Translations under genes and position numbers: made by a program
Notes under the pieces: generated by a model
Database searches by the model: none
The model's input: only the letters and a program-made list of their open reading frames with translations
What the model was told of the DNA's origin: nothing
From: Neofusicoccum parvum
Lineage: Eukaryota > Ascomycota > Dothideomycetes > Botryosphaeriales > Botryosphaeriaceae
Direction: 5' to 3'
NCBI GenBank assembly: GCA_020912385.1
Contig: CP087216.1
Location: 1,240,001-1,304,000 of the forward strand
DNA length: 64,000 nt
Shown: in pieces, positions 24,845 to 61,504 of the stretch
Layout: each line of letters begins with the position of its first letter
Position numbering within the stretch: the stretch's first letter is position 1

Positions 24845-25752
24845 GATGGAGAGCAAGGCGAATCGGATTTGATGGGCGCTTGCTATTTCTCAAGTCCGTC
24901 CTCCTCTGCAGCACCAGGTCTTGGATTAATTTAGGGAAAGGCACATCTGGCATTGCCTCTGCAATTGGATCTTGGCGGGAGCTCACAGTCATACGCAGCG
25001 TTGGCGCATGTCCAGCTGCAGCGGGGGGTTGGCATGGACTGCGGCAACTGCTGGCGCGGGAGTCCGCACAAACGATAGCTGTACAGATCAATGCAAGTAG
25101 TAATAAACGAAGCACCCTCGCAGAGACCGTGTCCCAGCACCAGACGGCGCGTCCGCTGGGTTGCTTGATTGGTCTAGTGCGGCAGGACAAAGCAGGGACG
25201 GCCTCGTGGAGCGCACGTGTGGAACGGCGCGAGATTGGCCGTCGCGGGCTTTGAGCGAGCAAAACTCTGGTCAGGAACACCCACTCCACCATGGCCGAGC
25301 CGAGCCGCTGCTCGTCGAGGCGCTTCGAGCACGGCGCGCGGTGGCTCGAGAGGATGGCCGGAAGGGCGGCCAGCAAATCAGCGCTCGAAGCGGCGCTGGG
25401 CCACTTCCCCGCGCGCTTAGAGGCCGGAAAACAGGCCTGTGACGTCTGGGCGCCCGGCGCATCACAGCCATCGGGCAGCTCCATTGGGCGCGTAGGACCC
25501 TCTCAGACAGCGATATCACGCGCGGCCCTACGCTGCCTGGCGCCGGCGAAGCACGCTCGAGTCTCGACCTCCAAGCTGACAGCCGCGCTCCTTCGTGCTC
25601 TCTTTCCTGAGACACTCCCACTGCGCCTGCCGCAGCTGTCATAATCCGCCTGCACCGCACCCCACCTCGCCGCCCGCCGTGCATGCGCAGCGTCGACACG
25701 CAACCCGCCGCCCGCCCGCCTCCCTCCGCCAGCTTTCTCGCACCCGGCCGCC
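24845..25752. other. Intergenic between ArfGAP and WW-PhoD genes
   Basis: Holds the ArfGAP 3' untranslated region, with an AATAAA at 25102-25107, and the promoter of the next gene. Open frames on the minus strand (24783-25484, 25503-25964) carry no family signature. Confidence 0.45.
25102..25107 (+). terminator. Candidate polyadenylation signal of the ArfGAP gene
   Basis: AATAAA 258 bases after the ArfGAP stop codon. Fungal poly(A) signals are degenerate, so this is suggestive only. Confidence 0.3.
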
Positions 25753-28700
25753 ATGGACGGCTCTCGGCGCCATGGCCGCCCCGAAGAGGAGCTCTTCCTG
25801 GGCCATGCCAGCAATGGGCCCGAGACGCCCACCGTTGGTCCGCTGCGCATCAACAAGCGCGACAACGCCGCCTCACCTCCGCCGCGCGCTGGCTCCGCTG
25901 GCAGCCTGAATGAAGGCCTTTCGCGCCCGCCGCCCGTTCCCAATTTTCCCGCGCCAGCATCCACGCCTCCCGCAGGCCCGCTGCCGTATCCCGACGACGG
26001 CCCGCGTCCGCAGCCTGCTGCCGCCCGCCGTGTCTACACGCCGCTCTCCGAGCGTGAAAGGACCTCGAGGAACAACACACCTGAGCAGGATGGACACCGG
26101 CGCCCGTCTGGGGGCTCTCCGCGCACACGCTTTGACGCCAACGACCCGCATAGGCCTACCGTCTCGGGCTATGCCTACGCACCCTATCCCGCCGACGAAG
26201 GCCGCGCGGGGTCTTCGCAGGGCAGGCCTACGGATAAGCGGCAGGGCACGCCGAAGCCGTTGCCTGCGTCACCGGGTCCGGAGACTCCAGACAAGGAGGA
26301 CTTGTTCCAGAAGGCCCCCAAGCGGGCTGGCCCGCAACCGCAAGATGCCACCCAGCGTCCGGTGGGAGTTGAACCAAATCCATATCCCGAGTACCACCAG
26401 CAGTATTGGCCACCGCCACCAACGGCCGCATCGCCGCCCCAGAACCAAGCTCTGAGAATACCAAACCCGGCGGGCGTGAATCGTCTCAGCTCCACCGCAT
26501 CAACATCGACAACGAGAGCGCAGAGGGGCTCTCCCCCTCCGCCTGAGACACCTGCAGCCGACCATCCTCCAGGCGGAGGAATTGAGGCTCGTTATGCCGC
26601 TGCTGGGATAGCGGGACCTTCTACCCTTAACAGCATTCAAGCACAAAATGCAGCGTCGACACAGCGGCTTAATCAGTATGGTGGACAGCCGCCTCAAGTG
26701 AGCTCTCCGCCCCAGCAAGCTCAGCAGCCACCTCAGCGGCCATGGACGCCAACTGAACAACCGGGAACGCAACCTCACGGCCCTCCAACTGTCTACCAAG
26801 GACTCTCAGAGGTCCGTCCACCTATTTCTTCATCCACTCCCCCAGTGGGCCCTCCTACAATGTCTTCTCCCCTTCCGTCCTCCGCAGGCCAGGTCCCAAC
26901 ACAGCAGGCTACGGCTCCCGGAGCAGCAGCGGTAGCCACCACCGGTCTCCGGCCTGGCGAGCAGACTTTAGAAACAGATTTCCAGCGCTTAAACGTTGGC
27001 GAGGAGCCACCGCCGGCATACTCCAGCGTGCAGCCTCAAGCCCCTCAGGGGTATCCCAACGACAAGCGCCCTTCTCCAGCAAATTCGCAGACCCCTGCGC
27101 AGCCTGTGGGCGTAGATGTGAATGTTGATCCCAGCCTCCAAGGACACCCAGCCTTTGCAAACCAGCAAGGCCAGCAACCAGGACTCGCACCTCAGCCGGG
27201 AATGCAGCCCCCCTCGCAAGCGCAGCCGCAGCCACAACAGCAGGCTGGACCAAGTAACTTGGCGCCTCTTCAGATTCTTCCCCATCAACAGAACGCGTCT
27301 CCTGGTCCTGGTCCCGGCCCAGCTTCTCCTCCGCCTCTCCCGGAAGGCTGGATTGCGCACCTAGACCCCAACTCCGGACACTACTATTACATTCATCTTC
27401 CAACACAGTCAACCCAATGGGAATTTCCAAAAGGTCCCACTCCTCTCAACCTTAGCGAACCTTTGTCTCCCACCGGCACTTTCGTCAACCCATTGACCTC
27501 TCCAGGACTGGGATCCTTCTCCGGGAAGCCTTTGGCATCACCTGGTTTTCCGCCCCAACAAGCAACGTACCATGAGGGCATGCCGGGCATGGCTGGTATT
27601 GCAAGCCCAACAGCTGCAGGCTTCACTGGTCCGCCGCCACAAGCTGGAGTCGACATGTACAAGATTCAACCTACCAATGGAGTCTACTTTGGGCCCTACT
27701 TACGTTACACCAACATGGATCTGGAGCGTGGCATTTGGCTCGGTTCGATCTTGCTAGTCACCGATGCCCCCCAGCCTCCAACCATCCATATTCATCAGAG
27801 TTTGGATCTCTCCCCGAATCCCCGACAGCTTAAACCCAATCCCATCTACAGCCACCAGAGATGGATTTTCTACAGATACGATATTGACCTCAAGATGGAA
27901 GAAGACCACGGTGCAAAGTGGACGTATGCTGTTACTTCCCATTTGGGTTGCACACGATATGAGTTCCTCGTCGCAGGGCGTCATGAGACTAGCTGGCGCT
28001 TTATTGCACACTCAGGCAACGACTTTGCACTCAATGTTGGTGCCAACGAACGTCAAAAGCTGGGTGGTGTCGGCTACATGTGGAAGGATATCTTGCAGAA
28101 GCACATCGAATGCGGCGGCTTCCATGTTCAGCTAGGTCTGGGCGACCAGATCTACGCGGACCGTGTCTGGAAGGAAATACCACTGCTCAAGCAATGGACA
28201 TCGATGAGTGGAAAAGATGTCCGGAAGAATGCACAATGGACAGCAAAGCACGAGGAAGATGTTACGCATTCATACTTCCACTACTATACCAGCCATTTTG
28301 ATCAGCCTCATCTTCGCGAGGCGTTTGCGCAAATCCCGCACGTCTTGACTCTAGATGACCACGATATGTAAGTACTCGTTTCCGATTGTTACTCCGTGCC
28401 GTGTTAGACTAGCCTTGCTAACGTGGTGATAGCTTTGATGGCTGGGGCTCCTATCCTGAGTATATGCAATTCTCCAACATGTTCAAGAACATCGGACGAA
28501 TCGGCATCGAGATGTATCTCTTATTTCAGCACCACACAACCCTGGAGATTCTTCGCAATGTGAACAATGACCAGGATCTCTTCACTATCACCGGAACTGG
28601 CTGGCACTTCGTCAAGTACTTGGGTCCGTCAGTCGTGGTAGTCGGCCCGGATACTCGGTCCGAGAGGAACCCGCACCAGGTCATGGCTGGCCCAACATAT

Positions 28701-50407: not shown

Positions 50408-50650
50408 TCACAGCTGGTCGATCCGGTCAAGGCATTGCGTGATGGCCTCCAGCGCTTGCGAGACGTTGAACGACTGCTGCGCGTCTGGCGAGAGATCGAG
50501 GTCGAGGCGGTGCTGGCTGGGCTTGGTGGCCGACGTCGGCGACGACACGACAGTGACGTTTGGAATCGCGACCTTGAGCGGTGGAAGGCCCCGCCGCGAG
50601 CGCAGCTGGCCGAAGGTGGAGCTGTCCGAGTCTGGCAGCGGCGAGCTCAT
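50408..50650 (-). CDS. Small hypothetical protein, weakly supported
   Basis: 80-residue open frame from an ATG at 50650 (MSSPLPDSDSSTFGQLRSRR) to DAQQSFNVSQALEAITQCLD and RIDQL. The C-terminal ~30 residues form a good amphipathic helix, and the Ser/Pro composition is protein-like. The frame stays open upstream to 50872, but there it runs through a GAGCAA repeat giving Ser-Cys repeats, which is unlikely coding. An ATG directly followed by GTAAGC at 50872 could be the end of an upstream exon. I recognise no family. It lies on the same strand as, and just downstream of, the Cys-rich tandem cluster. Confidence 0.3.
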   Translation of the reverse strand: MSSPLPDSDSSTFGQLRSRRGLPPLKVAIPNVTVVSSPTSATKPSQHRLDLDLSPDAQQSFNVSQALEAITQCLDRIDQL

Positions 50651-51102
50651 CTCCAATGTTGTTGTCGCGATGCCGGATAGCGCTGGGCGCGGGCGTGTTT
50701 CATGGCAGCAGCGACGGCCACTGCAAGGAGGAGAGCAAGAGCAAGAGCAAGAGCAAGAGCAAGAGCGTGGGGAGGTCTGTGTTCGTGATGACTCGACGCG
50801 CTGCCGTGCTTTAATCTGAGGGCGTTCGTCGCCGTCTTCTGACCTAAGCTGATGGAGGCTGAAGCTTACCATGTCGCATCACCGGGCTTGCCGTGTCGAA
50901 GACGTTGCAGTGGCCTGGCCTGCTTTGCTGCCTCGCGCCGTCCGCCCATCACCGTCACGCCCGTCGCACGTCACGCGCAGTCAACGCGGGAAGCAGTCAT
51001 CTCTATTCAGCAGCTCTTCGCTGCCGCTCTACGGAAAAACGCTAAGCCACCACCAACCCAAGCACGCCGGTCCGCAGACTCACCTATAAGCTTACCCTCA
51101 GC
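50651..51102. other. Intergenic
   Basis: Short gap below Cys-rich gene A. Contains the GAGCAA repeat at 50733-50766. Nothing else seen. Confidence 0.4.
50733..50766. repeat. GAGCAA hexanucleotide tandem repeat
   Basis: About 5.7 units of a 6-base repeat; read on the minus strand it would encode alternating Ser and Cys. Confidence 0.85.
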
Positions 51103-52038
51103 TCAGAATCCCACCAGCTCCTGCTTCGCCTCCGGAGAAAGCTCTGGCTGGGTCCCCTTCGCAGCCTTGAGGACTTGTGGGTTGAAGAGAAGAGGCGATG
51201 CAGCGGCCAGCCGTTCCGGGTTGGAGACATCTACTTGCAAAGGAGGGCCTCCCCGGCGTTGGCGTAACCCTTCAGTGCCGGCGCCATGAGGTAGCAGACT
51301 GCACTTCGCCGGACTCACTGTCGGCTCGTCGCCGTCTTTCCTGGCCTCTTGCTTGCCCTCCATGCCATCCACTGACTCTTGGCTCCACTCTCGACTCCAC
51401 TCGTCGAAGCTCAGCCTCGCCTCAATCTTCGATCTCTCAAACATGTCCGGCGAAGCAAGGCTATCCTCTTCGCCAGCTCCAAGGCCTACCTTCGTCTCCT
51501 TCACAAATGCCTCCGCCTTCCCAACCTTGAACTTCAGTCTTCCTTCACCGCACTGCTTTCCACATCTCTTGCATGCTTTGCCCTTGAACACAACCATCTC
51601 CGTCTGCTTACGGACTACTCCAGACGTCCGGCTCGGCTCCACCACCACAGCTTCCCCGCAATCTCCGCAAACGTAAAAGAAAACATCTTGCAGCAGTGCG
51701 TCGGCCGGCACCTGATGGTAATCAGCGGCGCGTGGAATCAGGTGCAGATGAGAGTTAGTCAAGGGCACAGTGCAATCGCCGCAAGCGTAGTGCTGGCATG
51801 CGAAGCAGCAAGAAGTCTTGGGGGCGAATTCGCGAGCAGCGTCAAGGAGAGGCGATGTATGACCGCAGCAGCAGCAGCTGAAGCTGTGGACAGCAAGGTG
51901 GGCGCGGATAGTAAGTTCAACCAGCGTGTATGGCAGCACGTATGCAGAGCGGCGGGCTTGAGGCCGTGTCGAGGTTTGCTGCGGTTGTCCTCGTCGTGGG
52001 TGCTTGGCAGAAAGGGAGCGGCGGAGAGTCTCAGACAT
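51103..52038 (-). CDS. Cys-rich zinc-ribbon-like protein A of a tandem trio
   Basis: 311 residues, single exon, start MSETLRRSLSAKHPRRG at 52038. The frame is open 107 codons further upstream, but that stretch is not protein-like. Ordered Cys blocks: C55-C58 (SCCCCGH), C77/78-x2-C81-x4-C86-x2-C89 (CCFACQHYACGDC), C124-x2-C127 (FYVCGDCGEAV), and C156-x2-C159-x3-C163 (ACKRCGKQC), then LKFKV. The first half has the look of the fungal CCxC...CxxCxHxxCxxC zinc-ribbon type. The tail is acidic and Ser-rich (FDEWSREWSQESVDGMEG) and ends SPEAKQELVGF. No signal peptide or membrane helix. Genes B and C, upstream on the same strand, share the block order and spacing. Function unknown; metal-stabilised protein or nucleic-acid binding is inference. 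Confidence 0.8.
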   Translation of the reverse strand: MSETLRRSLSAKHPRRGQPQQTSTRPQARRSAYVLPYTLVELTIRAHLAVHSFSCCCCGHTSPLLDAAREFAPKTSCCFACQHYACGDCTVPLTNSHLHLIPRAADYHQVPADALLQDVFFYVCGDCGEAVVVEPSRTSGVVRKQTEMVVFKGKACKRCGKQCGEGRLKFKVGKAEAFVKETKVGLGAGEEDSLASPDMFERSKIEARLSFDEWSREWSQESVDGMEGKQEARKDGDEPTVSPAKCSLLPHGAGTEGLRQRRGGPPLQVDVSNPERLAAASPLLFNPQVLKAAKGTQPELSPEAKQELVGF

Positions 52039-52711
52039 GTTGGACTGCGGAGTAGAGGTCCTAGGAGATCCAACTACCTGTGAGGTCAAGCTTTCCGGGT
52101 TTCTTCTTGATTGAGTCGGATTGGTAGCGAATCTGCTAGCAAGAAGCTTTGTGAGGGATGGCCGAAAGGTGAACTTGCCAACGGACAGGAGACGGCGGTA
52201 TAATTTGAATGAGAGTAGTGTACGGTATCTGCTGGCATAAATCATGGCTACTAGCATGGCACTGTTGTGGTACAAGACGAACAATTGCATTATTCTGCTG
52301 AACCGTGAACGGACCTCGATGTATCGTGGGCACATCTCAACCTTCAATACCAAAAACAATGCAACAAAGAGATCGGCGTGGGCTCACTTCCCTGGTTTTG
52401 GCCTCAAGTCTGGTAGCATCTGAAAGATATGGTTGATACTTTCACTATGCGTTAACTGTCTGCAAGTGTCACTGTGTAGTCTCCCCTTCGAGACTGGCAG
52501 GGAGCACTTCTTGTTGCACTCTCAGCATGTTTGATTCCATGACCACCAGTCGTGCTCTATCGTCTTTCCACAAGAAGGCGTGGTATTTCACATCTGCAAA
52601 TCACAGCATGAGGCTATTCAAAAAGATTCATAGAGGGATATTTTAAAGCATCTATTCATAACTTACACGATACCATTGCCAAATAGCAAAACGTAGGAAA
52701 CCATCTAAAAA
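52039..52711. other. Intergenic between Cys-rich genes B and A
   Basis: 673 bases, moderately AT-rich, presumably the promoter of gene A and the 3' end of gene B. No other feature. Confidence 0.45.
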
Positions 52712-54337
52712 TCACAACGAAACACTCGAATCATCCTCTGTATCCTGCAGCTCTTGTTCAGGTAGGAGAGGACCAAGAAGCTGACGAATGCGGTTATCAA
52801 GAATCGGTTGCAACGAGAACGCTGCTGCGAGACTGGGATGCAGTCCAGCTGGTGAGAAGCTTACATGGACTGGTCTCTCTGTATCCTCACCTTCCTCGGC
52901 CGCATCGTCATCATCCTTCCCATATTCCAGTCCGCCGTCTTCAGGAGCCACCGTCACCACAGTAGACTCATCCCATCTCTCTCCGGATACAGTGCTGCTG
53001 GTGTCAGGTGCCCCAAAAGAATATCCAATTGCAAGATCCTCCAGGACAGGTGCGGAAGAGCATCCAACGATGATGGAATCCTCTCCAATGGAAGAATGAA
53101 GAGGGCGTCTGGGAAATGAGCCCGGAGAGGGGCCAGTCGGGCGCTCTGACATACTCGCATCGAAGGAAGAGGTGTTCGTGAGCGTTGAAGGTGACGGATA
53201 GTTAGATGACTGTGAGTAGCATGAGAGATTCGCAGACGGGGGGGACCGGGCCGGGGAAGGCGGCAAAGGTATCTCGAAAGGATCTGCAAGGATAACGAGA
53301 CCTTCTTCGCCCCTAAGAGGGTCGTTAGGAACTGGAACGAGGCACGAGTCCAGACTCTCCATCGAACTTACATCCGAGTTGCTGGATTCTCGTAGACCGA
53401 AGTGGATAAAGCTGTCCAGCGCTGTCTCCTTCTGTTCCTCCGGAGGTGTCGGTGACGCATCGGAGTTGTATGGCTGATCCCGTATCCAAAGATAGAAGGG
53501 GACGTCCTGGCCTTGTGACACAGGCTCCAGGTTGTCATTGGAGGATTCTGGAGGTAAAGACAGTGGCTGGCATGGGTTGTGAGATGAGAACGAAAGAGCG
53601 GTCTCGGTCTCGTGATATGCCAGCATAAGCGAGCGCGGAGGAGAATCGCTAGGAGGCCTTGGTGCCTCACCTTCAAGCTCAATTTCCCCCTGAAGAAAGG
53701 GCGAATTAGGCGGCGCAGGGTGCCAGACCTCGGCAGCGAATGCCAGAGGGTTGATCGATCGTAGGTGGGGAGTTGCTAAGTCAGTCCAAGCCTGGGGAAA
53801 GAACTGTCCTGTTGGTGGTGGCGTCACTTCTTCAAGAACCCGTCCTACAGCTTCAGCCTCCACTAGGACTTTGTCCAAGCTGAGACAGGTGTTGATAGAA
53901 AGGCTTGGCGACGGTCGAAGACGAGTCGAAGGACTCAGGGGAGCAGAGCAGAGCTTAACTTTCAACTTCAGAAATTTCGAGTTGTACGCTCTCCCGCAGT
54001 CCTTGCACTCCTCCCCGAGAAAGCAAACGGAGAGAGTTGAGCGACGGAGCTTTCCCCACCAAGAGCCCGTCGGCTCGCTTTCAATGGAGTTGCAGGTCCC
54101 ACACTCACAAATGTAAAGATATTTGTCGTCGCTGCACTCATCGGTGTCCGAGTAAAGCTGCTGAACGGACTCAGAAGCGGAGACAACGACACAGTCGCGG
54201 CAGGGAGTGGAAGAGCATTGCTTGCATTTTGTGGTCTTTGAAGAAGCGATCATCTCTTCAGAATAGCAGCCACACAAGCAGCACATGAATCCAGTCCTTC
54301 CAAGCTCGGCCAGCAAGCTAAGCTGAGCTGGTTCCAT
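52712..54337 (-). CDS. Cys-rich zinc-ribbon-like protein B of a tandem trio, long acidic tail
   Basis: 541 residues from MEPAQLSLLAELGRTGFMCC at 54337; an in-frame Met at 54451 is another possible start. Cys blocks: C19-C20-x-C22-x-C24 (MCCLCGC), C38-x2-C41-x4-C46-x2-C49 (KCKQCSSTPCRDC), C77-x-C79-x2-C82 (YICECGTCN), and C111-x2-C114 (ECKDCGRAY), then FLKLKVKLC. Gene A ends its module similarly (LKFKV). After residue ~125 the protein is a long disordered Ser/Pro/Glu-rich tail with segments such as PSTRLRPSPSLSINTCLSLD and WDESTVVTVAPEDGGLEYGK, ending in an acidic EQELQDTEDDSSVSL. No transmembrane helix or catalytic domain. The N-terminal module looks structural; the tail could be a phospho-regulated interaction region. 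Function unknown. Confidence 0.8.
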   Translation of the reverse strand: MEPAQLSLLAELGRTGFMCCLCGCYSEEMIASSKTTKCKQCSSTPCRDCVVVSASESVQQLYSDTDECSDDKYLYICECGTCNSIESEPTGSWWGKLRRSTLSVCFLGEECKDCGRAYNSKFLKLKVKLCSAPLSPSTRLRPSPSLSINTCLSLDKVLVEAEAVGRVLEEVTPPPTGQFFPQAWTDLATPHLRSINPLAFAAEVWHPAPPNSPFLQGEIELEGEAPRPPSDSPPRSLMLAYHETETALSFSSHNPCQPLSLPPESSNDNLEPVSQGQDVPFYLWIRDQPYNSDASPTPPEEQKETALDSFIHFGLRESSNSDVSSMESLDSCLVPVPNDPLRGEEGLVILADPFEIPLPPSPARSPPSANLSCYSQSSNYPSPSTLTNTSSFDASMSERPTGPSPGSFPRRPLHSSIGEDSIIVGCSSAPVLEDLAIGYSFGAPDTSSTVSGERWDESTVVTVAPEDGGLEYGKDDDDAAEEGEDTERPVHVSFSPAGLHPSLAAAFSLQPILDNRIRQLLGPLLPEQELQDTEDDSSVSL

Positions 54338-55016
54338 AGTTTGATTGCTGTAAGGGTGGCGAAGAGACGGGGAACTTAGACGGCTGTCCTTGGAAGTGAA
54401 TGTGAGATTGGGTGGGAATGATGATTGGGGCAGGACGGTTTTTTCAGAGCACATATTCGCATTGCCTGCGCGGGTTTGTTTATGTTTGTCTTTGTGGAGC
54501 GATGTTGCCCTACGATGCCATTGTGTTTGTGGACTGGCCTGAATAATTCTCAACAGTAAGACTACGTCTGGGACAAGGGAAAAAACAATGAGCAAGCTGA
54601 TATTGTATACGAGAGAGTGTGATGGTCAATTCGCGAAGTGTTGCAACAAATTCACACATGGGCAGATGAAACATTCAAGCGGATGGTTCTGGAATTCCTG
54701 CACTCTTTCCGAGCCGACCTCTTATCGTCTGCAAGGCATGATGCCACAGGGTTGGGTAAAGGCCAACTATGATCTGCATACTTTTCGTAATATCAGCATG
54801 AACGTAGCCCCTTCTTCAGGACCTGCTTACCTTGTCTGGAGCGAGCAGTCTGCGGGCCCAGATCTCCGCGAAGCACACCCATCACAACGCCGGGATCCTG
54901 AATAAAGCCTAGCCTGCACTCGGATCACCTTGCGGGTCGTCAATTGGGGGTCTACTGTGGTCAGACGGTGGCGCCAGATTGCCATTGCGAGCTAGCGCGA
55001 TGTTGAAGCGCCAGGA
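54338..55016. other. Intergenic between Cys-rich genes C and B
   Basis: 679 bases, almost the same length as the B-A spacer. A plus-strand open frame at 54588-54905 has no recognisable product. Otherwise nothing seen. Confidence 0.45.
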
Positions 55017-55736
55017 TCACATGCCATACTCGAGCGTCTCCATCTCCTCGAGGGTGAGGCTACCATGCGTGGCCTGGGAGCTGCAGCTGGCCGAATCGTC
55101 GGAGTCTATCTCGTCCGGGGTCAGAGCGGGGCGCGCCAGCGGTGAGGTAGGAGCTCCAGAAGCGAGGCGGGTCCTGACAGCTCTCGTATGGGTATCGTAC
55201 TCCCTTCTGTTCCTCTTGGGACTGCTGACGGGGTCCTGCGGCTGCTCCCAGGGCTTGATGCGGTAAAGGAAGCATCTCTCGTGGCAGCGTCGGGCACAAC
55301 AGCGGCAGGTGCTCCAGGTAAAGTCGACAAACCAGTCCTTGTCGGCGGCGCGGGAGCGTAGCTGACGGGTGGTGTTAGCAGCTGAGCTGGCTGTGTCGTT
55401 GAGCTGGAGCAGTGGCGGCACCTTGTTCGAGGCGCCACAGCCATCACAGTAGAAGCCGTGCGAGTACCGGAAGCGGTCCTTGCCGGGGACGTGGTGGCGG
55501 AGGCCCTTGATCTGAGTAAAGACATCGGACGCGACGTGGCAGTTGGCGCACAAAGGGTGGGCGCACGCGCAGACAGCACTCTTGAGACTGCGGTTCTCGT
55601 CGGTGTCCAGGAAGGAGGGCTGGCAGCAGAGACAACAGGTGGCTGTCGTGTTCTTGATCTTGACTTCGGTGACGTGGTGCTCGTAGGCGCGCCACTTGGA
55701 GTTGAGCACGCCGCCCAGCAACGGCGAGCATGCCAT
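55017..55736 (-). CDS. Cys-rich zinc-ribbon-like protein C of a tandem trio
   Basis: 239 residues from MACSPLLGGVLNSKWRAYEH at 55736. The frame remains open upstream to 55925, but that part is GC-rich and unlike protein. Cys blocks: C34-C35-x-C37-C38 (CCLCC), C56-x-C58-x4-C63-x2-C66 (VCACAHPLCANC, with a His as in gene A), C97-x2-C100 (FYCDGCGASN), and C144-x-C146-C147-x3-C151-x3-C155 (STCRCCARRCHERC). It has a basic linker after the module and an acidic Ser-rich end, closing TLEEMETLEYGM. It is the shortest tail of the trio. Block order and the C-x4-C-x2-C core are identical to A and B, so common descent is likely despite low overall identity. Function unknown. Confidence 0.78.
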   Translation of the reverse strand: MACSPLLGGVLNSKWRAYEHHVTEVKIKNTTATCCLCCQPSFLDTDENRSLKSAVCACAHPLCANCHVASDVFTQIKGLRHHVPGKDRFRYSHGFYCDGCGASNKVPPLLQLNDTASSAANTTRQLRSRAADKDWFVDFTWSTCRCCARRCHERCFLYRIKPWEQPQDPVSSPKRNRREYDTHTRAVRTRLASGAPTSPLARPALTPDEIDSDDSASCSSQATHGSLTLEEMETLEYGM

Positions 55737-56915: not shown

Positions 56916-58095
56916 TCATGCTTGCAACTCCTCGACGCAGCCGCCCTGCTCCACCCGCGTGACGACGATCCACATGATCTTGTTTGCAACCTTCTCCTCC
57001 TTCTTGTCCACCGCTGCCATTTCCCTCTCACCGACCAACTTGATTTCCTCAATGATCTGGCTCCTCTTCTCCAGCTTGGCGGCGAAGTTCCGGTCGGCTC
57101 CGTCCGGCGCGTGTCCCTGGGTTTCCATGGCCGCAATCTCCTGGTTCACCGTCGCCAACTCCGCAGCCAGCGCGGTTGTCTCCTGCGTCACGTTCTGTAG
57201 CGCCTTCGCGCGCCTCTTTATCGTGTTGTTAACGCTCCTGTTGTTCATTGCTCTCATGTGCCCCCTCAGGAACCCCCTGACCATTGGGTCGCGACCCGCA
57301 TCCCATGAAAGCGGCATCACAAGCCCTTGGACTGCCCGCACCCTCCTTTCCTGGGGGTCCTCCGCAACCGTCGTCATCTCCGTGCTGCCGTTGTAGTATT
57401 CCAGCTCATCCAACTCGTTCAGCCCCGGCAGCTTCAGCTTCCCGTTGTTCTCTGTGTCAAAGGCACCAATCGCTTTCATCATCTTCTTGGTAGGCAGAAT
57501 CTCGCACTTCAGGCCCCGGGGTGCAAAGAGGTCGCGGTTGGCTCGCTTGACGTATAGCTTGGTCCGGATCATGGTGACGACGAAGGATGACATGGAGCAC
57601 AGGACGTGGCACGCACCGCCGATGATCTGTACAACGAGGACGGGGATGACGATCGGAATGTAGGTGAGCAGCCAGCCCAGCTGCGAGAAAGTGTTGGACA
57701 CGTAGGCGCTGTTGAGGCCGTCGATGAAGGCGATGAACTCGGCTTGCGTAATAGGGTGCTGGATGTCGGCCAGGGCGGGTGGGTAGGCGCGCGAGAAGGG
57801 CGACAAGGATTGGACGAAGATGTTGGTGACCTCTGTTGCCATGTTGATCATGGTGAGCGGTGCGGGCTGCGGTTTGGGAGGGCACGCTACACTTACGAGG
57901 CACCACGATTGGCCTTGTGAGAGACTGCGAGCTCGATGAGGAAGACAAGGCACTCTGCGAAGTCATCTCGACGCCTTGGGATTGAGCTTTCGGACCGGCT
58001 CTGAACGCCATTGTGAAGGAGATGCGTGGCTGAGGCTGTGCCGTTCGCACTGGGACTGTCGTCTCTTGCATGGACTTTGTCGACAAGGTCAACAT
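56916..58095 (-). CDS. Conserved fungal membrane-associated protein, unknown function
   Basis: Exons 58095-57897 and 57832-56916; 371 residues. The 64-nt intron (GTAAGT...CAG) joins RPIVVP to QVTNIFVQSLSPFSRAYPPA in frame. The start could be 58095 (MLTLSTKSMQETT), 58071 or 58011. The core SPFSRAYPPALADIQHPITQ and EFIAFIDGLNSAYVSNTFSQ is followed by a hydrophobic region with one or two membrane helices (LGWLLTYIPIVIPVLVVQII, GGACHVLCSMSSFVVTMI), then TKLYVKRANRDLFAPRGLKC with ILPTKKMMKAIG. These blocks recur in a family I have seen in many ascomycetes, often without known role. The C-terminal third is a Lys/Glu coiled coil. Probably membrane-anchored, with a cytosolic coiled coil; function unknown. 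Confidence 0.8.
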
Positions 58096-60421: not shown

Positions 60422-60736
60422 TCAATGCTTCATGGCCTGGAATGCCTTCTCGATGCAGCTATCGCAGCCCAGCTCGTCGTACTCGGACTTTTCGCACGTG
60501 CAGAAGACGCCCTTTGCGTAGTCCTGCACGGACAGTTCCGTCTCCGAAGGCGGCGTCTCCAGCGAGAGGTCGGCCACCGACGATGTTTCGGAGGTGAGGT
60601 TGGAGTCGGTCGTCTCCGGGTGTTCGATGGCGCACAGGCCCTTCTCGAAGCACTTGATGCAGCCGACCTCGTCGTAGGTGGACTCGGCGCAGGTGCAGAC
60701 GATGCCCGTGGGCGCGGTTGTGGCGACAAGAGGCAT
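60422..60736 (-). CDS. Small protein with duplicated C-x-C-x9-C-x2-C motif
   Basis: 104 residues, single exon, start MPLVATTAPTGIVCTCAEST at 60736; no in-frame Met lies close upstream. Two copies of one motif: C14-x-C16-x9-C26-x2-C29 (CTCAESTYDEVGCIKCFEKG) and C79-x-C81-x9-C91-x2-C94 (CTCEKSEYDELGCDSCIEKA), offset by 65 residues. Shared residues include CTC, YDE, GC, C and EK, so this is an internal duplication. The linker is acidic and Ser/Thr-rich. Each repeat has four Cys in zinc-ligand-like spacing. A TATA box stands 126 bases upstream. No signal peptide, so it is probably intracellular. It does not share the block order of the nearby Cys-rich trio. No family recognised; metal binding is inferred. 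Confidence 0.75.
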   Translation of the reverse strand: MPLVATTAPTGIVCTCAESTYDEVGCIKCFEKGLCAIEHPETTDSNLTSETSSVADLSLETPPSETELSVQDYAKGVFCTCEKSEYDELGCDSCIEKAFQAMKH

Positions 60737-61504
60737 GTTTGGTGTGGCGGTCTTGGTGGTCGAGGCGCGTTGCGCGTCAAAAGAGGCAGTGGTGGCAAGC
60801 GATGAGAGCTGTTTGCTGTGGATGCTGGAGGCTACGCAGCAGGCTTGAGAACACAGGCACGTTATATAGTCATGCCACAGCGTCGCGGGCGGCGCGCGGT
60901 GGTGCAGTGGCCAAGTCGCGCAATGTGGCGACGCAGGGCGAGGGCTGGCGCGCGAAAAATTATCACACCACCGGGCCGCAGCGCAGCGAGGCGGTTTCAG
61001 GCGCCAGGGGCCGCCGGCACATCTCCCGTTGGTGGTTCGAGGCTTGAATGACCGGTTGGCTTGGCCGTATCTTCGTTGCGCATGCGGCCCTGCGCAGTCC
61101 TGCGGTGTACTGGTGCGGGCGTGGCCGGGCGCATGCGGCACGCCCAGCTGACGAGCCCGTCGGGAGAACTCGCGACGCACTTTCTTCCGTGGCGAGACAG
61201 CCCAGCCCATCGCCGACTGAACCCATCATCCTGTCAGCTTTGCATTTTTTTTTTCTTCTTATCTAGTGCTGCCGACGTGTTCGACGCCCCCACTTGGGCT
61301 CGACGAGTTTTTCCCCCAAGCTTCCGTAGCTTCTGCGCCGTCTGGGACATCGGCCCGCCCGACGAGAGCAGCGATGGTGTGCGTCCGTCGTCGCCGCGCC
61401 ACGGCCGTTTGTCTTTCCTTTGCCCTCCGGAGGCTCCGCCGTGAGAGGCCAAGGCGGGCTTTATCTGCCAGCGGCTGGAAGGACGTCACCTGGAGCGCAC
61501 GTGG
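60737..61504. other. Intergenic
   Basis: Promoter of the Cys-repeat gene, and 3' end of the WD40-cyclophilin gene. Contains a T-rich tract at 61,247-61,260. No gene found. Confidence 0.45.
60862..60869 (-). promoter_or_regulatory. TATA box of the Cys-repeat gene
   Basis: Reads CTATATAAC on the minus strand, 126 bases before the ATG at 60736, a normal distance for a fungal gene with a ~90-base leader. Confidence 0.45.

Follow-up and report, generated by a model that had tools for sequence, protein, structure and literature searches.

Three adjacent Cys-rich genes of Neofusicoccum parvum that look like ancient duplicates built on a putative double zinc-ribbon module

The closest described systems to the proteins considered here are zinc-binding modules. 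Zinc ribbons occur in the ribosomal protein S27e, in the N-terminal domains of MCM proteins and in the finger regions of USP proteins; RING-HC fingers follow a generic C3HC4 spacing consensus, and FYVE domains carry the motif (R/K)(R/K)HH(C/S)R. The Pfam family PF26652 is, we assume, a probable double zinc ribbon domain, and our search of the open-licence literature turned up no paper on this domain. Here we analyze three consecutive genes, A, B and C (Table 1), in a window of 64,000 bases from the Neofusicoccum parvum genome (bases 1240001–1304000 of contig C11; genome of 43.99 Mb in 18 contigs). All three carry a common Cys module, A and B are homologous, and C is kept in other genera. On balance, we favor a model in which a single gene, encoding an intracellular protein based on a double zinc-ribbon module, gave rise to A, B and C by old tandem duplications.

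The common module consists of five Cys knuckles in a fixed order, which bears out the proposal of an earlier, sequence-only reading of this DNA that the three proteins share one ordered Cys signature. This order is present in all eight sequences of our comparison set, namely A, B, C and the five database relatives tested (P0004 and P0006–P0009), and among the 1023 open reading frames (ORFs) of at least 40 codons in the window it is matched by three, those of A, B and C. It rarely arises by chance: 20000 shuffles each of the first 190 residues of A, the first 190 residues of B and the whole of C produced it 0, 1 and 0 times, respectively. The alignment of the eight sequences also contains invariant Y, CG, R and V-x-F positions, and the strand that the same reading had placed at the end of the module in A and B reads LKFKV and LKLKV. 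In B, the C-x-H-x2-C core has Ser at the His position, and C-x-C-G serves as the fourth knuckle.

On sequence grounds, we regard the homology of A and B as certain. They share 30% identity over 164 columns (BLASTP pair E 2e-12), the match recurs in whole-genome protein searches (E 9.6e-8 and 1.2e-7), and none of 1000 shuffles in which the Cys were held fixed reached the score in either direction. The earlier statement that the proteins hardly agree outside the Cys is therefore wrong for this pair.

C probably shares a common origin with A and B. We place this link a grade below that of A with B because the profile support for C is good by hhalign and partial by hmmsearch, and its single-sequence links are weak or absent. 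The strongest support comes from the hhalign comparison of the C family with a profile of A, P0004 and B, which gave 95.2% (E 2.7e-8, for that single comparison). Trimmed to the module, the same comparison gave 91.9% and a score of 46.1, above every control (maximum 39.5 in 150 Cys-fixed column shuffles and 23.0 in 80 full shuffles). Smaller profiles gave lower values, with A and P0004 against C at 49.7% (score 32.1, a figure that has no shuffle control) and B alone against C at 36.9% (score 29.2, reached by 0 of 100 shuffles). In hmmsearch with the A, P0004 and B profile, none of 1000 Cys-fixed shuffles scored as high as C; with the C profile, 1 of 1000 scored as high as A. For A and C as single sequences, the identity is 24% and the pair E 1e-4; of 1000 shuffles with the Cys kept in place, 25 and 9 scored as high.

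Several results nevertheless count against a common origin of all three genes. The single-sequence scores of B and C are noise, being reached by 273 and 136 of 1000 Cys-fixed shuffles, and in hmmsearch with the C profile 130 of 1000 such shuffles score at least as high as B. The A, P0004 and B profile gives 11.6 bits to the ORF of C and 11.0 to an unrelated ORF at 1741–2067. A genome search with P0007, a relative of C, ranks A (E 0.109) under a spurious match (E 0.0013), and genome searches with the C relatives P0008 and P0009 list neither A nor B. Within the module, 13 of the 15 Cys of C are kept in all four of the relatives P0006–P0009, whereas C38 and C146 are not conserved. These results raise the possibility that only A and B are duplicates, and that their neighbor C, a Cys-rich zinc protein of separate origin, resembles them by Cys spacing alone. 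A genome search with the C module, which lists neither A nor B at E up to 10, is consistent with this alternative, as are weak matches to the C1 (phorbol ester) domain (best E 0.0027), which appear in three of five C-family members, the C of the window not among them, and in neither A nor B. We nonetheless consider it improbable, given that none of the 150 Cys-fixed column shuffles attains the profile–profile score, that the five knuckles stand in the same order next to the invariant positions of the alignment, and that C adjoins A and B on one strand.

If the three genes are duplicates, the duplication appears to have been both local and old, as the sequence-only reading had supposed. We found no convincing copy of the module outside the cluster in eight whole-genome protein searches, whose counts are lower bounds (queries: the modules of A, B and C, full-length A and B, and P0007, P0008 and P0009). 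The identity of A and C (24%) is far below the 59% that C shares with each of P0007–P0009, its relatives from other genera (P0006: 99%), so the split between A and C would be older than the separation of Macrophomina, Diplodia and Lasiodiplodia, given similar rates. All relatives with an organism name belong to the Botryosphaeriaceae: P0007–P0009, from those three genera, and P0005, which is labeled Neofusicoccum parvum but bears the locus tag BOTSDO, presumably that of Botryosphaeria dothidea. In searches of length-limited sets of protein-database candidates, gene A had two relatives among 5028, the B module none among 134, and the profile of A, B and C six among 4202 at E up to 10. P0004 is 95% identical to A, with identical first residues, and P0005, a fragmentary record that begins inside A, shows no difference from it in 93 residues (A 148–240); together with the near-identity of P0005 to ORF T (below), this places its source in the same species as the window or a very close one. 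C occurs in at least three other genera, which does not bear out the suggestion that the family is lineage-specific. The absence of A and B from the protein database is weak evidence on this point because gene models are poor, as P0005 illustrates; elsewhere, A and B may have been lost, or may be undetected or unannotated.

Open minus-strand frames lie where the sequence-only reading had placed the three genes, and stop codons in the other two forward frames number 9 and 11 for A, 12 and 30 for B, and 2 and 3 for C. The same reading had remarked on nearly equal spacers of 673 and 679 bases; this holds if B starts at ATG 54337 but not with the first in-frame ATG, 54454, which leaves a second spacer of 562 bases. 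Third-position GC (guanine plus cytosine) is 0.80 in C, 0.62 in A and 0.53 in B, compared with 0.67–0.79 in three other genes of the window. The GC-rich third positions of C fit a copy under constraint, and the lower values of A and B fit copies that are relaxed or only weakly expressed. Together with its conserved sequence, they make C the best candidate for the original role, and A and B would then be the diverged copies.

Table 1. Positions of the genes, modules and associated features within the window.
Feature	Position	Strand	Description
Gene A	51103..52038	-	311 amino acids from ATG 52038, read as a single exon; basic N-terminus followed by the Cys module and a variable tail
Gene B	52712..54454	-	580 amino acids from ATG 54454; 541 amino acids from alternative ATG 54337
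Gene C	55017..55736	-	239 amino acids; relatives in Macrophomina, Diplodia, Lasiodiplodia
Cys module of A	51550..51876	-	C55 to C163: CCCC..CxxCxHxxCxxC..CxxCG..CxxCG..C
Cys module of B	53996..54283	-	C58 to C153, numbering from ATG 54454
Cys module of C	55272..55637	-	C34 to C155; extra C-x3-C-H-x2-C at end
ORF T	50408..50650	-	80 amino acids from ATG 50650; joined to A in P0005; separate gene or alternative last exon
Putative intron	50651..51318	-	668 bases, GTGAGT..GAG, implied by P0005; covers last 71 codons of A

In the model that we favor, pairs of knuckles would hold two structural zincs. The first ribbon would be formed by the CCxC and the next CxxC knuckles and the second by the CxxCG and the last CxxC knuckles, and the remaining CxxC, with the His in A and C, may contribute to a third site. 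The module might then present a surface to which proteins or nucleic acids bind, with partners or regulation set by the fast-changing tails, of which that of B has 405 residues downstream of the module (Ser 15%, Pro 13%). Such a locus would be a compact case of fungal zinc-module evolution, in which one constrained and two diverged copies lie side by side and the tails are free to change.

The proposed intracellular location is suggested by hydropathy. A simple hydropathy measure, used here in place of a dedicated predictor, showed no clear signal peptide or membrane span in A, B or C. N-terminal maxima over 11 residues were 0.69 for A, 0.11 for B (1.43 for its short form) and 1.69 for C, and maxima over 19 residues were 1.31, 1.31 and 1.08, respectively. 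One value is less comfortable for this placement: P0009, the Lasiodiplodia theobromae relative of C, reaches a borderline 1.61 over 19 residues, within its Cys core. The database names P0009 'Surface antigen-like protein', and it too has no clear signal peptide or membrane span. That name, the Cys-rich, fast-diverging and clustered character of the trio and the origin of its relatives in fungi that we take to be plant-associated would all suit secreted or host-facing effectors. However, the hydropathy results argue otherwise, and CxxC knuckles would suit structural zinc better than disulfides. We consider effectors highly improbable, and the earlier description of the family as environment-facing is left unsupported.

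The tail of A offers a further puzzle. P0005 passes from the DEPT of A directly into the first Met of ORF T, with 2 differences from T in 80 residues, and the junction that this implies is present in the window (ACA|GTGAGT and TTGGAG|ATG, in phase and 668 bases apart). In addition, LRSRRGLPPLKV of ORF T resembles LRQRRGGPPLQV of the tail of A, with LRxRRGxPPLxV in common; the Smith–Waterman score of the unspliced tail against T, 56, was reached by 1 of 5000 shuffles, and the match has an E of only 0.3–0.5 when all window ORFs are searched. These sequences could mean that A has two alternative C-terminal exons derived from a tail duplication, with read-through leading to LRQRRGGPPLQV and the 668-base splice to LRSRRGLPPLKV. 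We regard this as distinctly unlikely, but if true, a single zinc module would be fitted with one or the other of two interchangeable tails, an unusual arrangement for a fungal gene. P0004 retains the unspliced tail (2 changes in 63 residues), T has a third-position GC of 0.86, and in a whole-genome search T finds itself alone. Because the ATG of T lies exactly at the acceptor, a separate small gene joined to A by a gene predictor is the simpler reading.

Elsewhere in the window, a small Cys-rich ORF at 60425–60970 (minus strand), about 5 kb from the trio, contains two internal CxC..CxxC-type repeats, CTCAESTYDEVGCIKC and CTCEKSEYDELGCDSC; its pattern differs from that of the trio, and no Pfam match was found at E up to 0.01. 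The gene adjoining C (56919–57953, minus strand) has a weak match to Erf4/Golgin A7 (E 0.00087; 19.7 bits, below the cut-off of 29.3). On the plus strand, a single reading frame (25747–28371) encodes a WW domain and, after it, the beginning of a PhoD_2 phosphatase domain.

Among described systems, RING-HC fingers provide the principal rival to the double zinc ribbon. The first four knuckles would then be a divergent RING-type cross-brace (C3HC4), with A and C resembling ubiquitin ligases and B a copy that lacks the His. The generic spacing is present in seven of the eight sequences (A, P0004, C and P0006–P0009) and fails in B; among the 1023 window ORFs it occurs in those of A and C only, it arose 1, 2 and 2 times in 20000 shuffles each of A, B and C, and to the eye the core CQHYACGDC resembles that of a RING. 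Against this, no Pfam RING model matches at E up to 10 (a search whose filters remove most matches above about 0.1). The module also exceeds a RING by one Cys pair and a fifth knuckle, the last pair is CPxC in none of the eight sequences (the CPVC of P0009 sits at the third knuckle), and the low-confidence fold model of A leans to ribbons. We therefore judge a RING to be unlikely. As for FYVE domains, their motif occurs in none of the eight sequences.

The double zinc ribbon remains the closer comparison, and the corresponding guess of the sequence-only reading fits both a Pfam tag on a relative of A and weak fold matches. P0004 carries PF26652.1, precomputed in the protein database, and it is through this 95% identical relative that A is linked to the family, whose likeness to the trio extends to the paired CxxC knuckles. 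In the low-confidence model of A, two separate parts weakly resemble zinc-ribbon proteins, namely S27e, MCM N-terminal domains and USP finger regions. Other observations reduce the weight of these likenesses. The database rows of P0005–P0009, unlike that of P0004, carry no Pfam tag, and in the copy of Pfam that we searched, which does not contain PF26652, no model matches A, B or C when each is taken as a whole protein. The two fold models, neither of them of B, have mean predicted local distance difference test (pLDDT) scores of 43.4 and 38.7, and thus establish no fold; Foldseek returned no matches at E up to 1e-3, and all Z scores for the likenesses of the A model are below 5, which may reflect merely a common arrangement. 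Taken against these known systems, the trio looks like a set of ancient local duplicates of a known, little-studied kind, rather than a new kind of system.
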